A stretch of 54,429 nucleotides of DNA from the IMG/VR virus record IMGVR_UViG_3300009788_000023, positions 1-54,429 of that record. One strand, given 5' to 3'. Positions 3,380-14,533 of this stretch are shown piece by piece. A program made the translations under genes and the position numbers. This DNA is from a virus. The notes beneath the pieces are model-generated. The model saw nothing but the letters and a program-made list of their open reading frames with translations. It did no database searches and was not told the DNA's origin. How positions within the stretch are numbered: the first letter of the stretch is position 1; each line of letters begins with the position of its first letter.

Positions 3380-3702
3380 TTACTCCTTTTGCGCTTAGAC
3401 CTTCGGCGCTTTTTCTTGGTTTTGGGTGGTTCGGGAGCTTCGTCCGGCTCCGGAGAAAGGATCTGATAAAATGCGAAATCGCAATGCCAGCATTTAGCGG
3501 CGATAGAATTGGAAAAAACCGTGCAATCGAAGGCGGAATCGTTGATTACAGGTAATGGTTGGCCGGATGGGCCGATACCGAAGTGTTTGCCGTAGAACCC
3601 CCGCTTCGCTCCACAGCAACCGCAAGTGAAGTGCTCTTTGCTCTCTGCAATACGGGCAGGTTCGCCCCAGCTTATCGTGCCGGTGTCCTTTTTAACGGCC
3701 AA
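3376..3702 (-). CDS. Zinc-ribbon-like hypothetical protein with basic tail
   Basis: 108 aa. A CxCC pair near residue 27 and a CWHC near residue 71 could form one zinc site, which suggests a treble-clef or zinc-ribbon fold. The C-terminal 20 residues are almost entirely Lys/Arg, as in nucleic-acid-binding tails. GGAAAGGAAAC precedes the ATG. It is the first gene after the repeat-bearing gap 3703-3798, so it may be the first gene of the rightmost tail operon. Function unknown. Confidence 0.65.
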   Translation of the reverse strand: MAVKKDTGTISWGEPARIAESKEHFTCGCCGAKRGFYGKHFGIGPSGQPLPVINDSAFDCTVFSNSIAAKCWHCDFAFYQILSPEPDEAPEPPKTKKKRRRSKRKRSK

Positions 3703-3727
3703 ACATGGTTTCCTTTCCTTTTCTCAA

Positions 3728-3768
3728 GTGTAATGATTCGTTACAAAAAAGTGTAACGAAACGTTACG
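3728..3768. promoter_or_regulatory. Cluster of GTAAC/GTTAC motifs (candidate operator)
   Basis: Four copies of a TGTAACG-type heptamer lie within 41 nt, in alternating orientation: TGTAATG (729-735), CGTTACA (739-745), TGTAACG (752-758) and CGTTACG (762-768). The middle two form a perfect 7-bp inverted repeat. The cluster lies between the small HTH gene (3799-4053) and the start of the tail operon, so it is a plausible binding site for a phage regulator. No sigma70-like promoter was seen here. Confidence 0.45.
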
Positions 3769-3798
3769 TTCCTTTTGTAAGGTAAGGAAGTATGGAAC

Positions 3799-4053
3799 TT
3801 AGAACCGCCTTTTTGGCTGAGAATCGCGTTCTTCGTTAAAACGAACGGTTAATTTGAAGTGCATTTGCTTCGGAGCTATGTTCGGCCAAATCTTTCGTAG
3901 TTTTTGGAGTAACTTGAGTACGGCACTTGGGCTAATCTGCATCCTGTTCGCAACCTCTTGTATTGGCAAACGGTATGCGTATCGGTACACAAAGGCGGTC
4001 AACTGTCTCTGTGTGGGGTATTTTATGTGATTTTTGCAGATAGGGCATTTCAA
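3799..4053 (-). CDS. Small zinc/HTH protein, sigma region 4-like
   Basis: 84 aa. A CPIC motif at residues 3-6 is followed by a helix-turn-helix around residues 30-52 (IQEVANRMQISPSAVLKLLQ-like), resembling sigma70 region 4 or LuxR-type HTHs. The start overlaps the stop of the upstream gene (4050). It is the last gene before the tail operon and faces a cluster of inverted motifs at 3728-3768, which makes it a candidate late regulator. Lack of sigma region 2 argues against a true sigma factor. Confidence 0.6.
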   Translation of the reverse strand: MKCPICKNHIKYPTQRQLTAFVYRYAYRLPIQEVANRMQISPSAVLKLLQKLRKIWPNIAPKQMHFKLTVRFNEERDSQPKRRF

Positions 4054-8230: not shown

Positions 8231-9319
8231 CTAAAAAAGCTGTATCAAAGTCCTAAACGCCAGTTCCGCACATTGCGGCACTACTCCGTTTCCCAAGAGC
8301 CTAAGTCTGTCCACCCGACTGGCAGGCCCATTAGCTGCTCTACCCAGTCGGGGTTTAGTTTGCCCTTCTGTTTCATCCTGTTTAGATTTCGCCCTATGCA
8401 GGTTTGTTTGCTTTCGGGTATCGTCCTTGCCCCTTCTACCCAATCGCTTGCTTGTGGAGTTCCCCACAACTCTTGGCTCTTCCCATTCGTACTGGGGCTG
8501 TCCGGGGCGAGAAGGCCAACGGCATCCCTGAGAGCGGCCTGGCCCTCTATGTTCTGGTTGCTCTTGAATCGTATTGAATTGCCTCTCTTGAATACTTCCC
8601 TGTTGTTGTCCAGGCAGTCCATTGTCTGTGGTGTCGGCCAGTTCACCGGTAATTTGCCCCTGTGTAGTGTTGCGTTGTGTAAATTGAACTGTGTCGCTGA
8701 CCATGTTCCTCCGTGACCATGTCCGGCGTCCGTTGCCATTATTGTTGGCCAGGATAAACAGCCTTTCTCTCTTGTGTGGGCAACATTCACACCTTTCGAT
8801 TTCAATAGTTTCTCCATCTTCAAACGTGATTGTTTCTGTAAATGTCGAGATACATTCACACGCTGTAAACAGTCCTGCCTCGACATAGTAACCCAAATTT
8901 CGTAGGCTTCGATAAACCTCGGGGTATCCGATGATAAGATGTCCTGAGACATTCTCGAAGAAGCACCAAACAGGTCTAACTGCCTCGATGATTCTTTCAA
9001 TATACGGCCAAAGGTGTCGAGGATCGTCTGTTCCCTGTCTTTTGCCGGCGACTGAGAAGGGTTGGCAGGGATAACCGCCAGTGATGATATGTACTTGGTT
9101 ACGAAACGGTTTTCCATTAAAGGATTTAATATCCGTCCAGATAGGCGCCGCATCCAGCCGCCCTTGTTCAATCTTCGATACCAGGTTCGCACAAGCGAAG
9201 GCTTCGATCTCCACATAACAGATTGTTCTAAGGTTCGCAATAACTCTACGGAGTCCCAATTCCAGCCCACCGTATCCCGTACACAGGCTGATACAGTTAA
9301 ATTGTTCGGTATTATCCAC
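8231..9319 (-). CDS. C5 cytosine DNA methyltransferase
   Basis: 362 aa from a GTG at 9319. The C5-methyltransferase motifs are in order: SLCTGYGGLELGL (I, residues 11-23), GGYPCQPFS with the catalytic Cys (IV, 81-89), FFENVSG (VI, 120-126), PHKRERLFIL (VIII) and RLLGNGVVPQ (IX/X, near the C-terminus). GAGG lies 6 nt before the GTG. No cognate restriction enzyme is next to it, so it is probably an orphan that shields phage DNA or modifies regulation. The target sequence cannot be read off. A second long frame overlaps almost the entire gene (see 8281-9321). Confidence 0.9.
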   Translation of the reverse strand: MDNTEQFNCISLCTGYGGLELGLRRVIANLRTICYVEIEAFACANLVSKIEQGRLDAAPIWTDIKSFNGKPFRNQVHIITGGYPCQPFSVAGKRQGTDDPRHLWPYIERIIEAVRPVWCFFENVSGHLIIGYPEVYRSLRNLGYYVEAGLFTACECISTFTETITFEDGETIEIERCECCPHKRERLFILANNNGNGRRTWSRRNMVSDTVQFTQRNTTQGQITGELADTTDNGLPGQQQGSIQERQFNTIQEQPEHRGPGRSQGCRWPSRPGQPQYEWEEPRVVGNSTSKRLGRRGKDDTRKQTNLHRAKSKQDETEGQTKPRLGRAANGPASRVDRLRLLGNGVVPQCAELAFRTLIQLF

Positions 9320-9321
9320 AT
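8281..9321 (-). CDS. Overlapping frame within the methyltransferase gene (possible overprinted gene)
   Basis: A 346-codon frame begins at an ATG (9321) that overlaps the methyltransferase GTG by two bases (ATGTG) and shares its Shine-Dalgarno. It has no stop for 1,041 nt. Its product carries patterns I recognise from phage annotations: DLFGASSRMSQD, FIEAYEIWVT, LSWPTIMATD, NWPTPQTMD, LWGTPQASDW and LNPDWVEQLMGLPVGWTDL. These could reflect true overprinting, or be frame-shadow conservation of the methyltransferase. No catalytic domain is evident. Expression is unproven. Confidence 0.4.
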   Translation of the reverse strand: MWIIPNNLTVSACVRDTVGWNWDSVELLRTLEQSVMWRSKPSLVRTWYRRLNKGGWMRRLSGRILNPLMENRFVTKYISSLAVIPANPSQSPAKDREQTILDTFGRILKESSRQLDLFGASSRMSQDILSSDTPRFIEAYEIWVTMSRQDCLQRVNVSRHLQKQSRLKMEKLLKSKGVNVAHTREKGCLSWPTIMATDAGHGHGGTWSATQFNLHNATLHRGKLPVNWPTPQTMDCLDNNREVFKRGNSIRFKSNQNIEGQAALRDAVGLLAPDSPSTNGKSQELWGTPQASDWVEGARTIPESKQTCIGRNLNRMKQKGKLNPDWVEQLMGLPVGWTDLGSWETE

Positions 9322-9382
9322 GTAACCTCAAAAACCGGCGCCGGGGCAAGCATCGAAAACCCCGACGCCTTATTCGAAACAA

Positions 9383-10859: not shown

Positions 10860-11999
10860 CTAATTGGCTTTCTTGTAACAAATTGGGCATAATATCGAAC
10901 CGCCTGCTGCGGAGTTGCCCTCTTCTTTATTAAAGCTATGGTTACAGCCCTTGCAAGTAAAATCTTTTTCATCAAGCAGTTTATCCGCGGGATTCTCGAC
11001 CGGTGCAGGCTCTTCTTCCGGCGCCTGTTCTGGGATAATATCGACGGGCATCGGGGCTTCCTGGACCTGCTCGACCGGCATCATATTCTCTTCTTTAGTC
11101 GGCTCAGGGGGAACACTAACAGTATCTTTGTTCATTTCCTCGGCTGTAAGAGTCGTTTTTGTGACGGTTTCCTTCTTCTTATTCTTAGAGCCTTTGGGGC
11201 GGCCTTGCTTCTTCTTAGCATTCTTATCGGCCTCGGCAAGCTGCTCAACCTCGGTCTGCTCAAGGGGGACGACGTTTTCCTGTTGTGGCTGCTCTACAGG
11301 CTGGCTCTCGACGTGCTTGGGCGGCGTTACGGCGGCAGTTTCTTCCTTCATGCGATTAAGTAAGCCTGCTGTGCCAGTCTTTGGTGCGTCCTCAGTAGGG
11401 ACGAAAGTCTCTGTCAGTGGCGGGGCTTCAATGTCAGCAAGTTCGTCAATAGTGTACATTCCCTGAATTAAATCGCTGTAATACCGCCGACAATGCCGAC
11501 TTACTGCTCGCCATGTGAGCATGTCTTTGGGATATTTTATCCAGTTATCCTTCTTTTTTGAGCCGCCTTCCCACAAGTTTGCTCGCTTGGCATCATCGAC
11601 CGAAAACTCTGTCACATTAACCGCCGATTCATTCCGTCGCTTTGACGTTACCATAGCCCTGTAGTTGTCCTCGTAAGGCGTACCTTCAAAATAACAGGTA
11701 ATATACTCACAGGCGCCACTCTTGCGTGCCAATGCGAGCATTGCAGAGCCTTCCATCCCCAGTCGGCCATTGATAACGTGCATTATTTGCATCGACTGCC
11801 ATGGCTTAAATCCAAGCTCTGCGCCTGCTTGAAGAACAACAACGACCTTTTCGGGCCGGTCTAATCCATAAGGGCATAATCCTGATTGGACGAACATCTT
11901 AGCGGTTCGCCACAGGTCGTCAATTGTCCCCAACTGCAAACTGCCTTGAACGACCTGCATTTGCGTTGGTTTTGTTGTTTGAATTTCGTTTTCTGCCAT
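10860..11999 (-). CDS. recT: RecT-family single-strand annealing protein with AT-hook and zinc ribbon extension
   Basis: 379 aa. Residues ~20-190 match the RecT-type annealing proteins (DDLWRTAKMFVQSGL, ELGFKPWQSMQIMHVINGR, and the W-R-A-V-S-R-H-CRRYYSDLIQGMYT region). RecT anneals complementary strands exposed by a partner 5'-3' exonuclease, which is encoded two genes upstream. The C-terminal half is unusual: a Pro/Glu linker, an AT-hook-like KKQGRPKGSKNKKK (residues ~263-276), and a terminal CxxC...CPIC zinc ribbon (349-374). GGAGAAATA precedes the ATG. Confidence 0.85.
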   Translation of the reverse strand: MAENEIQTTKPTQMQVVQGSLQLGTIDDLWRTAKMFVQSGLCPYGLDRPEKVVVVLQAGAELGFKPWQSMQIMHVINGRLGMEGSAMLALARKSGACEYITCYFEGTPYEDNYRAMVTSKRRNESAVNVTEFSVDDAKRANLWEGGSKKKDNWIKYPKDMLTWRAVSRHCRRYYSDLIQGMYTIDELADIEAPPLTETFVPTEDAPKTGTAGLLNRMKEETAAVTPPKHVESQPVEQPQQENVVPLEQTEVEQLAEADKNAKKKQGRPKGSKNKKKETVTKTTLTAEEMNKDTVSVPPEPTKEENMMPVEQVQEAPMPVDIIPEQAPEEEPAPVENPADKLLDEKDFTCKGCNHSFNKEEGNSAAGGSILCPICYKKAN

Positions 12000-12477: not shown

Positions 12478-13431
12478 CTAAAATTTCTTTTTCGGCGGCT
12501 TCTTGATTCTTAAAACTCTTGATTTTGATACATTCTTGTACTTTTCGAATATCTCAGGCTCTTTTTCTTTTAAGTCGCTACCGCTGATAGTTTCTTTCGT
12601 ATGTTCCAGATAAGTTACTATCCTCCCATCCTCAAGATATACGCCCTCGGCATCACCCATATAAGTAGTTACTTCAGTGTAAGCCCCTTCTAAGATGTCT
12701 TTAGTTAATTTTGCTCCTTCTCTGGCGTTTTCCCAAGCCGTAACGAGCACCATAAACAAGGTCATTTCATCCTTGCCGAGCTTGATAATCTTACCTGGCT
12801 CCCGTTTTCTACGCTTTGCCATAGCAAAAGACGGAATAATATCCGGTGGCGGCATATCCTTCTCAACGTAGGTTTCCCAGAAGTCCATCGCCGTATCGCA
12901 GATAATGTCTATCATTTCCTGCTTGCGGCTAACGTGGTACATCACAAAGCCCTTGCCGCCTAATAGGACAGGTACCCAGCAAACTTCCCTGTCCCAACAG
13001 AGCATGTGGACGTGGCCTTGTACGAGGATCCGATCAGGCAATTCATCGCTTCCAGGTTCACCGTAATATTCCACAAACGGGCCAAGGATGCCTGCGGTCT
13101 TTGCTTCGACAGGAACGCCAGATGCAATAACTTCTCCGTCTGCATGTGAGCCTATTGGGAAGCCCTGTGCTTTGCGGAATAGAGCGGAACCATCTTCCTG
13201 CTCGCATTTAATCGGGCCAAGATCGCCTTCTGCCCACGACAAAATGCCTGCTTCCAATTTATTGCCCATATCGAGCCAAGGTTTATTTGCTGGGTCTGGG
13301 CCAAGTTTGCCAGTTTTGTCCATCCAGCAATCGTATGCGTTACCATAAGGGCTTACCCCTAAAACCATTGCCATATCGCTTGAGCCCAACCAGCCTTGAC
13401 GGGCCCGTCTTTGTTCTTCTGTAATTCCCAT
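12478..13431 (-). CDS. YqaJ-like/lambda-type exonuclease
   Basis: 317 aa from the ATG at 13431. The YqaJ-domain signatures are present: GSSDMAMVLGVSPYGNA (residues 16-32), GNKLEAG (57-62), HADGE with Asp98, VEAKTA (E109-x-K111) and VQGHVHMLCW (137-146), matching the PD-(D/E)xK fold. It should degrade 5' ends of linear DNA and hand single strands to RecT. A longer frame from 13461 overlaps the HNH gene and is less likely, although that ATG is in frame. Confidence 0.82.
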   Translation of the reverse strand: MGITEEQRRARQGWLGSSDMAMVLGVSPYGNAYDCWMDKTGKLGPDPANKPWLDMGNKLEAGILSWAEGDLGPIKCEQEDGSALFRKAQGFPIGSHADGEVIASGVPVEAKTAGILGPFVEYYGEPGSDELPDRILVQGHVHMLCWDREVCWVPVLLGGKGFVMYHVSRKQEMIDIICDTAMDFWETYVEKDMPPPDIIPSFAMAKRRKREPGKIIKLGKDEMTLFMVLVTAWENAREGAKLTKDILEGAYTEVTTYMGDAEGVYLEDGRIVTYLEHTKETISGSDLKEKEPEIFEKYKNVSKSRVLRIKKPPKKKF

Positions 13432-13432
13432 G

Positions 13433-13900
13433 TCAAAAATTCGTCCTTGCGAATTCTCCATAAAGTTCTATTGCTTTGGTATCATAGGCCTTTGCTGCCT
13501 CGATTTCATCGTCAAAGCGGCCATAATGCTTGCTACCCACCTGAAGCATCCATCTTTGTCTTGCTTTATCCCAACACACCCCCTTGTAGTTAGAGCTTGT
13601 ATTGAGGCGTTTTTTTGCATTTGCGTGATTAAGGCTATAGTTGCAAAACCTTAGATTTAATCGTTGGTTATCCAAGCCGTTTCTGTTGCGATGGTCTATC
13701 TGTTGCCCTTTGTTGGCTTTCATTATCATTCTGTGCATATAAGGATGCTCGCTTTTGCTTTTGCTGATATAGATAGATGTTTTGGCATAACAATTTCCAG
13801 AGTCCGTCTCAAAATAAAACCACTTCAGCTTTCGGAGCCACTCAAAATCTTCATCATCCACAATAGCAAAATAGCCCTGAGTCAATTCAATCTGTTTCAT
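13433..13900 (-). CDS. HNH homing endonuclease with AP2 DNA-binding domain
   Basis: 155 aa. Residues ~55-90 form the HNH core (HRMIMKANKGQQIDHRNRNGLDNQRLNLR-type), and the C-terminal ~50 residues (SNYKGVCWDKARQRW...YGRFDDEIEAAKAYDTKA) form an AP2 domain. This pairing is typical of free-standing phage homing endonucleases. It lies directly in front of the exonuclease gene. GAGGATTGAATT precedes the ATG. Confidence 0.88.
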   Translation of the reverse strand: MKQIELTQGYFAIVDDEDFEWLRKLKWFYFETDSGNCYAKTSIYISKSKSEHPYMHRMIMKANKGQQIDHRNRNGLDNQRLNLRFCNYSLNHANAKKRLNTSSNYKGVCWDKARQRWMLQVGSKHYGRFDDEIEAAKAYDTKAIELYGEFARTNF

Positions 13901-14032: not shown

Positions 14033-14533
14033 TCATTCGTAAAGTCTCTTTTTCACTTTCTGCCAATATGCTTTTGTGGAATCCTTTTTCCATCCGTTCG
14101 GGCCGCCGTTGTGAATTCTTGCTATATCCTCAAAGGTAGGTTCTCTGCCGATGCGTTCTTTTGTGGCGTAATGCTCAAGGTAGTGCTTAACCATACATTT
14201 ACTGTACCAATAGTTGTGCCTATCTTCGTATTTGAATTTGTATGCCTTGTGCTGATATGTAGATTGCAATATCCGGTTCACATCATCGACGTAGATAGAA
14301 TGAATCTGGAAGCTCCCAATTGCCTTACCATTGTCGCCTACGGCGTGTTTGTTCCCCCCGCTTTCCACGAACTCCATCGCATCGAGTAATTGCTCAAAAG
14401 GCGGCTTTGGAGCCGAAGCGTGCGGTATAGTCAATTCGACAGTCCGCTTCATATCAGCCCCGGCTTCACGGCAGACAATCGCCATCAGGTAGATGAACGC
14501 AAGTCCCAAAAGTACGCAAAATAGTGTTTTCAT
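14033..14533 (-). CDS. Endolysin: lysozyme/transglycosylase-like with N-terminal signal or anchor
   Basis: 166 aa. An N-terminal hydrophobic segment (residues 4-20) precedes a lysozyme-fold domain with the catalytic Glu in MEFVESGG (Glu57), GDNGKAIGSFQIH (66-78) and IARIHNGGPNGW. It is predicted to cut peptidoglycan. The membrane segment suggests export via Sec or a signal-anchor-release endolysin, which would reduce dependence on a large-hole holin. Neighbouring membrane genes (14731-15239) complete a probable lysis cassette. GAAGGGGTTTTATT precedes the ATG. Confidence 0.8.
   Translation of the reverse strand: MKTLFCVLLGLAFIYLMAIVCREAGADMKRTVELTIPHASAPKPPFEQLLDAMEFVESGGNKHAVGDNGKAIGSFQIHSIYVDDVNRILQSTYQHKAYKFKYEDRHNYWYSKCMVKHYLEHYATKERIGREPTFEDIARIHNGGPNGWKKDSTKAYWQKVKKRLYE

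Follow-up and report, generated by a model that had tools for sequence, protein, structure and literature searches.

A phage C5-cytosine methyltransferase locus whose two overlapping reading frames probably encode complementary subunits of one enzyme

The systems closest to the locus described here are C5-cytosine methyltransferases divided between two polypeptides. In the case of EcoHK31I, which recognizes YGGCCR, Lee, Kam and Shaw reportedly observed in 1995 that the beta ORF overlaps that of alpha in the other frame, and that both proteins are needed. The sequence motifs of such enzymes are distributed in different ways. The large subunit of M.EcoHK31I carries motifs I-VIII and X and the small subunit motif IX, with the target-recognition region (TRD) predicted on the large subunit, while in M.AquI motifs I-VIII are located on the large subunit and the distal variable region, motif IX and motif X on the small one (PMC3404938). 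Totally overlapping C5-methyltransferase products were described for Streptococcus thermophilus phages of the 5093 group, and similar ones for a pneumococcal phage and a streptococcal conjugative transposon; the passages of that report concerned with the overlap give it without a selection test or a mechanism (PMC5601072). In phage ShiLan, a protein is hidden in another frame of a methylase gene (PMC11855218), but it represents a homing element, inserted and read in the third frame, and is not a part of the enzyme. Our literature search retrieved no account of phage-wide dual coding beyond PMC5601072. There are precedents for both split and overlapping C5 methyltransferases; the new elements are the extent of the overlap, the shared start, the evidence of selection and the spread.

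The window analyzed here, i.e., the whole stretch of DNA, is a virus contig of 54,429 bases, in which the methyltransferase locus occupies positions 8231-9321 of the minus strand in the form of two long frames that overlap. Frame 1, called alpha, is open over 8231-9382 and encodes 362 aa from a GTG at 9319 to a stop at 8231, while frame 2 (beta), at +1 relative to alpha, runs from an ATG at 9321 to a stop at 8281 (346 aa). The coordinates given for both in a first-pass annotation of the window (GTG 9319; ATG 9321; 346 codons) proved to be right. The features of the locus are the following.

8231..9319, minus strand: alpha, C5-cytosine DNA methyltransferase, 362 aa, GTG start (Pfam PF00145, phrog_363)
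8281..9321, minus strand: beta, 346 aa, ATG start, overlapping almost the entire alpha (open frame, phrog_1008, purifying selection)
9316..9321, minus strand: dual start ATGTGG, the ATG for beta and the GTG two bases on for alpha (shared by most loci)
9326..9329, minus strand: GAGG, Shine-Dalgarno-like, preceding the ATG by 4 nt and the GTG by 6 nt
8735..9319, minus strand: alpha residues 1-195, motifs I-VIII, large catalytic domain (pLDDT mostly ~90; HhaI/HaeIII alignment)
9053-9070, minus strand: alpha PCQPFS
8948-8959, minus strand: alpha FENV
8750-8770, minus strand: alpha RERLFIL
8321..8731, minus strand: alpha residues 197-333, unstructured linker at the expected small-domain site (pLDDT, substitution pattern)
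8471..8518, minus strand: alpha island WPSRPGQPQYEWEEPR within the linker (frame-1 substitution pattern; conserved in alignment A2)
8234..8317, minus strand: alpha motif X, RVDRLRLLGNGVVPQCAELAFRTLI, with GNGVVP at 8276-8293 (pLDDT 81-96 mostly; frame-1 pattern past the beta stop)
8782..9321, minus strand: beta residues 1-180, helical N-terminal region overlying the catalytic domain, MWIIP..SVMWRSKPS..RTW.. (AlphaFold, conservation above synonymous shuffles)
8359..8757, minus strand: beta probable target-recognition region, WPTP-type modules WPTIMATD, WPTPQTMD and WGTPQASDW (single-chain homology; dN/dS 0.22)
8302..8358, minus strand: beta C5-methyltransferase motif IX, LNPDWVEQLMGLPVGWTDL (motif pattern; in-frame alignment with single-chain relatives)

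The genome record also contains portal, major head, RecE- and RecT-like genes. The RecT-like annealing protein (10860-11999) and RecE-like exonuclease (12478-13461) are encoded upstream of the methyltransferase, and a Destabilase-domain protein at 14033-14533 (Pfam E=4.9e-9) is probably the product of a lysozyme-like lysis gene. No restriction enzyme was recognized by Pfam among ten genes near the methyltransferase, although one may still be present.

Alpha has the catalytic domain, motifs I-VIII and motif X of a C5-cytosine methyltransferase. It matches PF00145 over residues 7-155 (E=1.6e-28) and phrog_363 (E=4e-49), and its AlphaFold model, which is confident over most of residues 1-195 and 335-362, aligns to HhaI and HaeIII with Z of 19-20 over about 185 residues. 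It departs from an ordinary single-chain enzyme in that it has no motif IX, which none of 83 loci has in its alpha, and in that residues 197-333 are predicted to be unstructured (pLDDT mostly <50).

Beta matches phrog_1008 (E=2.8e-19), which is annotated as 'DNA methyltransferase' and is matched by 115 of 115 aligned relatives. Its tail probably consists of motif IX and a target-recognition region, both absent from frame 1. We take LNPDWVEQLMGLP to be motif IX on the basis of its position, homology with single-chain enzymes and comparison with HhaI. A strict pattern detected motif IX-like LNPDWVEQLMGLPVGWT in beta in 70 of the 83 loci, and in most of the others it was recognizable by eye; a phmmer search of the PDB with the IX-X segment of locus L091 did not find HhaI and returned only chance sigma-factor matches.

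In four relatives from mycobacteriophages and Gordonia phages (Tweety gp72, Ramsey gp69, Sanjuju gp4 and prophiGD91-2 gp27), all of the pieces are located in one frame, in the order alpha-like catalytic part, beta-like LPTP modules with an EWMMGWPAGW-type motif IX, and alpha-like motif X. The match to beta, in a database made up of these four sequences, has an E of 3e-5 for Tweety and of about 1e-8 for the other three, and their +1 frames contain 8-11 stops. Since the single-frame relatives hold it in order, the C-terminal half of beta would correspond to the small domain of the enzyme, i.e., the TRD and motif IX. In terms of structure, residues 1-180 of beta are modelled by AlphaFold as helices, with pLDDT 80-92 in much of them, while the model as a whole is partly confident (mean pLDDT 62.8) and the probable TRD is mostly below 50. 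A Foldseek search of the PDB with this model gave nothing at E <0.001 (a single match had E=9.9), and a PDB sequence search with the beta profile was uninformative (best E=0.069). The assignment of the TRD role consequently rests on sequence homology and position. A hidden homing endonuclease of the ShiLan kind was also considered for beta and rejected, as neither HNH nor any other convincing Pfam match was found.

A genuine overprinted protein of separate function, e.g., a regulator, a nuclease or an anti-restriction protein, would account for the independent start of beta and for its N-terminal 180 residues, which have no Pfam or PDB relative. We consider such a role quite improbable, given that the C-terminal half is homologous to the VIII-X region of single-chain methyltransferases, that beta carries motif IX, which alpha lacks, and in some loci also motif X, and that it accompanies alpha in the loci seen. 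As the beta tail holds pieces that are missing from frame 1, the two products look like complementary subunits and not alternative tails. The locus most probably encodes a fully overprinted two-subunit C5-cytosine methyltransferase like M.EcoHK31I and M.AquI, in which beta would provide target recognition and motif IX.

The likeness to M.EcoHK31I is one of motif layout: motifs I-VIII and X are on alpha and motif IX on a second polypeptide, as read here at the level of open frames. In contrast to M.EcoHK31I, whose TRD is predicted on the large subunit, the TRD-like WPTP region of the window is on beta and the alpha linker is disordered; moreover, beta begins 2 nt ahead of alpha and covers nearly the whole of it. 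The difference from M.AquI lies in motif X, which is on alpha in the window and not with motif IX on the second chain, and in the overlap of the frames over almost their full length. Two annotated CDS at +1 are likewise found in Paenibacillus larvae phage Redbud (g50/g51, 'internal gene') and in coliphage K1ind2 ('C-specific methylase' and 'Mte8-like protein'), but there beta is shorter and starts within the catalytic region, and the annotations state no function. In phage 5093, unlike the window pair, the main frame contains HhaI-like motifs IX and X, with a +1 ORF of 143 codons. This ORF, in the HhaI-type methyltransferase of that phage (L213, 6212-6643), has SLLDILEENVDEKFFLS, which resembles sequence located in frame in the methyltransferase of L023, and overprinting may extend to this HhaI-type family.

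The first-pass annotation had further described three pairs of motifs as identical bases offset by one, and all three were located in the window. LADTTDNGL of frame 1 and WPTPQTMD of frame 2 have bases 8617-8640 in common, VGNSTSKRLG and WGTPQASDW bases 8440-8466, and RAANGPASRVDRLR and LNPDWVEQLMGLPVGWTDL bases 8302-8358. It had also regarded an open run of 346 codons as unlikely to arise by chance. Synonymous-codon shuffles of the window alpha agree with this, having a mean of 5.7 stops in the +1 frame and P(0)=0.0004, while the real beta has none.

The openness of frame 2 extends to the relatives. Among 85 non-redundant loci, with a mean alpha identity of 55%, the catalytic region (150 codons each) contained 16 stops in the +1 frame versus 220 expected, and 82 of the 85 were stop-free over this length; in the +2 frame of the same loci, 605 stops were counted versus 674 expected. 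In nine flanking gene families treated alike, +1 stops were near expectation, without depletion. The pairwise identity of beta was 0.38 versus 0.24 after synonymous shuffling, and third-position identity at degenerate codons for the same residue was 0.526 versus 0.314 (two outgroups were left out in both cases). Since shuffling loses the relatedness of the sequences, the conservation argument leans on the flanking-gene controls and on the analysis of pairs.

The latter comprised 18 independent close pairs with no sequence in common and 78-97% identity, in which substitutions were classed by their effect in each frame. In the catalytic part (p1/p2/p3 =.086/.043/.145), substitutions synonymous in frame 1 and not in frame 2 were suppressed, with SN/SS of 0.25 (0.19-0.34), and NS/SS was 0.11 (0.08-0.17); alpha and beta are both under purifying selection over their common bases. 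In the downstream overlap (p1/p2/p3 =.139/.041/.064), beta is the dominant constrained frame, with dN/dS of 0.22 (0.17-0.28) versus 0.57 (0.44-0.70) for alpha, except in the alpha island and motif X. This downstream pattern was unchanged with beta-guided or nucleotide alignments. In the alpha linker outside the EWEEPR island, frame-1 position 1 is the fastest (0.142) and position 3 is slow (0.052), while the island itself, WPxRPGxxQxEWEEPR, has an alpha-type substitution pattern (p1/p2/p3 =.039/.000/.129). Past the beta stop, an ordinary alpha pattern is observed (p1/p2/p3 =.083/.074/.318, point values).

Stops in relatives, or substitutions free of frame-2 constraint, had been named at the outset as the marks of a mere shadow frame. 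Neither mark applies: practically all relatives have an open frame 2, among them 80 of 80 loci found with an alpha-only query, all of which carry beta at +1, and this frame is constrained in both parts of the overlap. Codon bias can yield stop-free +1 frames, but an origin of beta as an untranslated by-product of alpha codon use is hardly credible in view of the synonymous-shuffle nulls, the control families without the effect, and the downstream substitutions, which track the codon positions of beta and not those of alpha. The earlier suggestion that two common types of methyltransferase tail are overprinted products of one gene is supported by the same tests of openness and constraint.

Programmed frameshifting was weighed as another way of using both frames: translation would begin at the alpha start, shift by +1 after motif VIII into the TRD and motif IX of beta, and return to the alpha frame ahead of motif X, so that a single full-length chain results. 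The three segments are indeed in the order of the single-chain homologues, and downstream it is beta that is constrained and alpha little so outside one island. Such a mechanism would not need beta in the catalytic half, yet it is there that SN/SS is suppressed and stops are depleted; moreover, beta has its own conserved start, and five loci have an alpha that lacks motif X at its end, this motif being already encoded in the frame of beta. On account of the upstream constraint on beta and of its separate start, we regard frameshifting as unlikely, and prefer two separately initiated subunits.

The start region was compared among relatives with an intact beta N-terminus, 73 of 79 of which have NTGTGG (58 ATG, 12 GTG and 3 TTG). 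In 38 relatives, the GTG within this sequence is the sole nearby start for alpha, while about half have another candidate; in the window, in-frame TTG starts upstream (e.g., 9382) are also possible for alpha. A Shine-Dalgarno-like element precedes the dual start in 45 of the 73, compared with 16% of random positions. We infer that one mRNA with one ribosome-binding region would serve both subunits, beta being translated from the ATG and alpha from the GTG two bases on. Beta would contribute the WPTP-type target-recognition region, presumably with the specificity of the enzyme, together with motif IX, and its N-terminal helical part may dock it on alpha. The two chains, both presumably needed, would assemble into a single enzyme that methylates the phage genome. 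Phage methyltransferases have a protective role, and such methylation would probably serve as protection against host restriction.

Contig searches of viral and genome sequences gave about 170 related loci, some contigs being counted twice. When profiles of both frames were applied to all open frames, beta was located at +1 to the catalytic part of alpha in nearly all of them, and both frames were usually 270-480 codons long. Cases with an offset of 0 arise mostly because the beta frame extends into motif X and draws the best alpha-profile match; the catalytic part is still at +1. Well over a hundred related virus sequences have this predicted double-coded gene, in most cases without annotation. 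The +1 overlap was read directly in phages of Lactobacillus (Lc-Nu), Acinetobacter (ABMM1), Pseudomonas (PMG1), Bacteroides (BS-TP4), Bordetella (PHB09), Burkholderia (BcepC6B), Salmonella (SEN4, ABTNLsp11242 and epsilon15) and Edwardsiella (eiAU-183), in coliphage K1ind2, in Klebsiella CP052639, in Paenibacillus larvae phages and in a Sphingomonas plasmid. Several of these phages have the beta start within the catalytic part, and the selection results pertain to 18 other pairs only. The gene annotated in PMG1 and in the Sphingomonas plasmid is that of beta, homologues of which are annotated as 'Mte8-like' in PMG1 and K1ind2. In Edwardsiella phage eiAU-183 (L207, 995-2419), the beta frame is stop-free into a downstream gene annotated as DNA methyltransferase.

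The distribution of motifs between the frames varied among the loci. By pattern, motif X is in alpha in 73 of the 83 loci, while in L020, L021, L091 and L095 (4 of the 83), and additionally in L088, it is missing from alpha and located in the beta frame. The AquI layout, with motifs IX and X both on beta, occurs in L021, L088, L091 and L095. In L061 and L065 (3163-3666) and in L102 (3403-3774), alpha terminates after motif VIII, at 189 codons, beta is intact and motif X forms a separate downstream ORF, so that a three-piece enzyme is possible. A reverse layout is seen in L022 (2486-3583 and 3022-3597), in which a single frame contains the catalytic part, the WPTP region and motif IX, and another contains motif X.

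With somewhat less assurance than for the window itself, we favour a general interpretation in which a widespread class of phage methyltransferases would be dual-coding over nearly its full length, one ribosome-binding region and ATGTGG giving two subunits in fixed proportion. Indels would shift motif segments from one frame to the other and thereby interconvert single-chain, EcoHK31I-like and AquI-like layouts inside a single family, and the N-terminal part of beta would then have been created by overprinting on the catalytic domain. If this is right, the routine annotation 'DNA methyltransferase' in many phages conceals half of the enzyme in the other frame, and consequently a cloned or modelled alpha would seem to lack activity and the wrong sequence would be used to assign specificity. 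The overlap would also be unusually long and widely conserved among same-strand overlaps of prokaryotic viruses, and would offer abundant natural variants for studying the origin and persistence of overprinted genes, as well as a natural set of split C5 methyltransferases.

Some loci contain additional sequence. A second copy of the methyltransferase 5' end (MWIIPKNLDVSACV.. or ISLCSGYEGLG..), followed by unrelated sequence, is located upstream in L011 (1959-2501), L019 (1975-2487) and L022 (1823-2485); in L022 it looks HNH/AP2-like, which suggests homing-type elements inserted at the start of the gene. In L020, a cysteine-rich HNH-like ORF (3508-3981) is located inside the methyltransferase region, between motifs IX and X.
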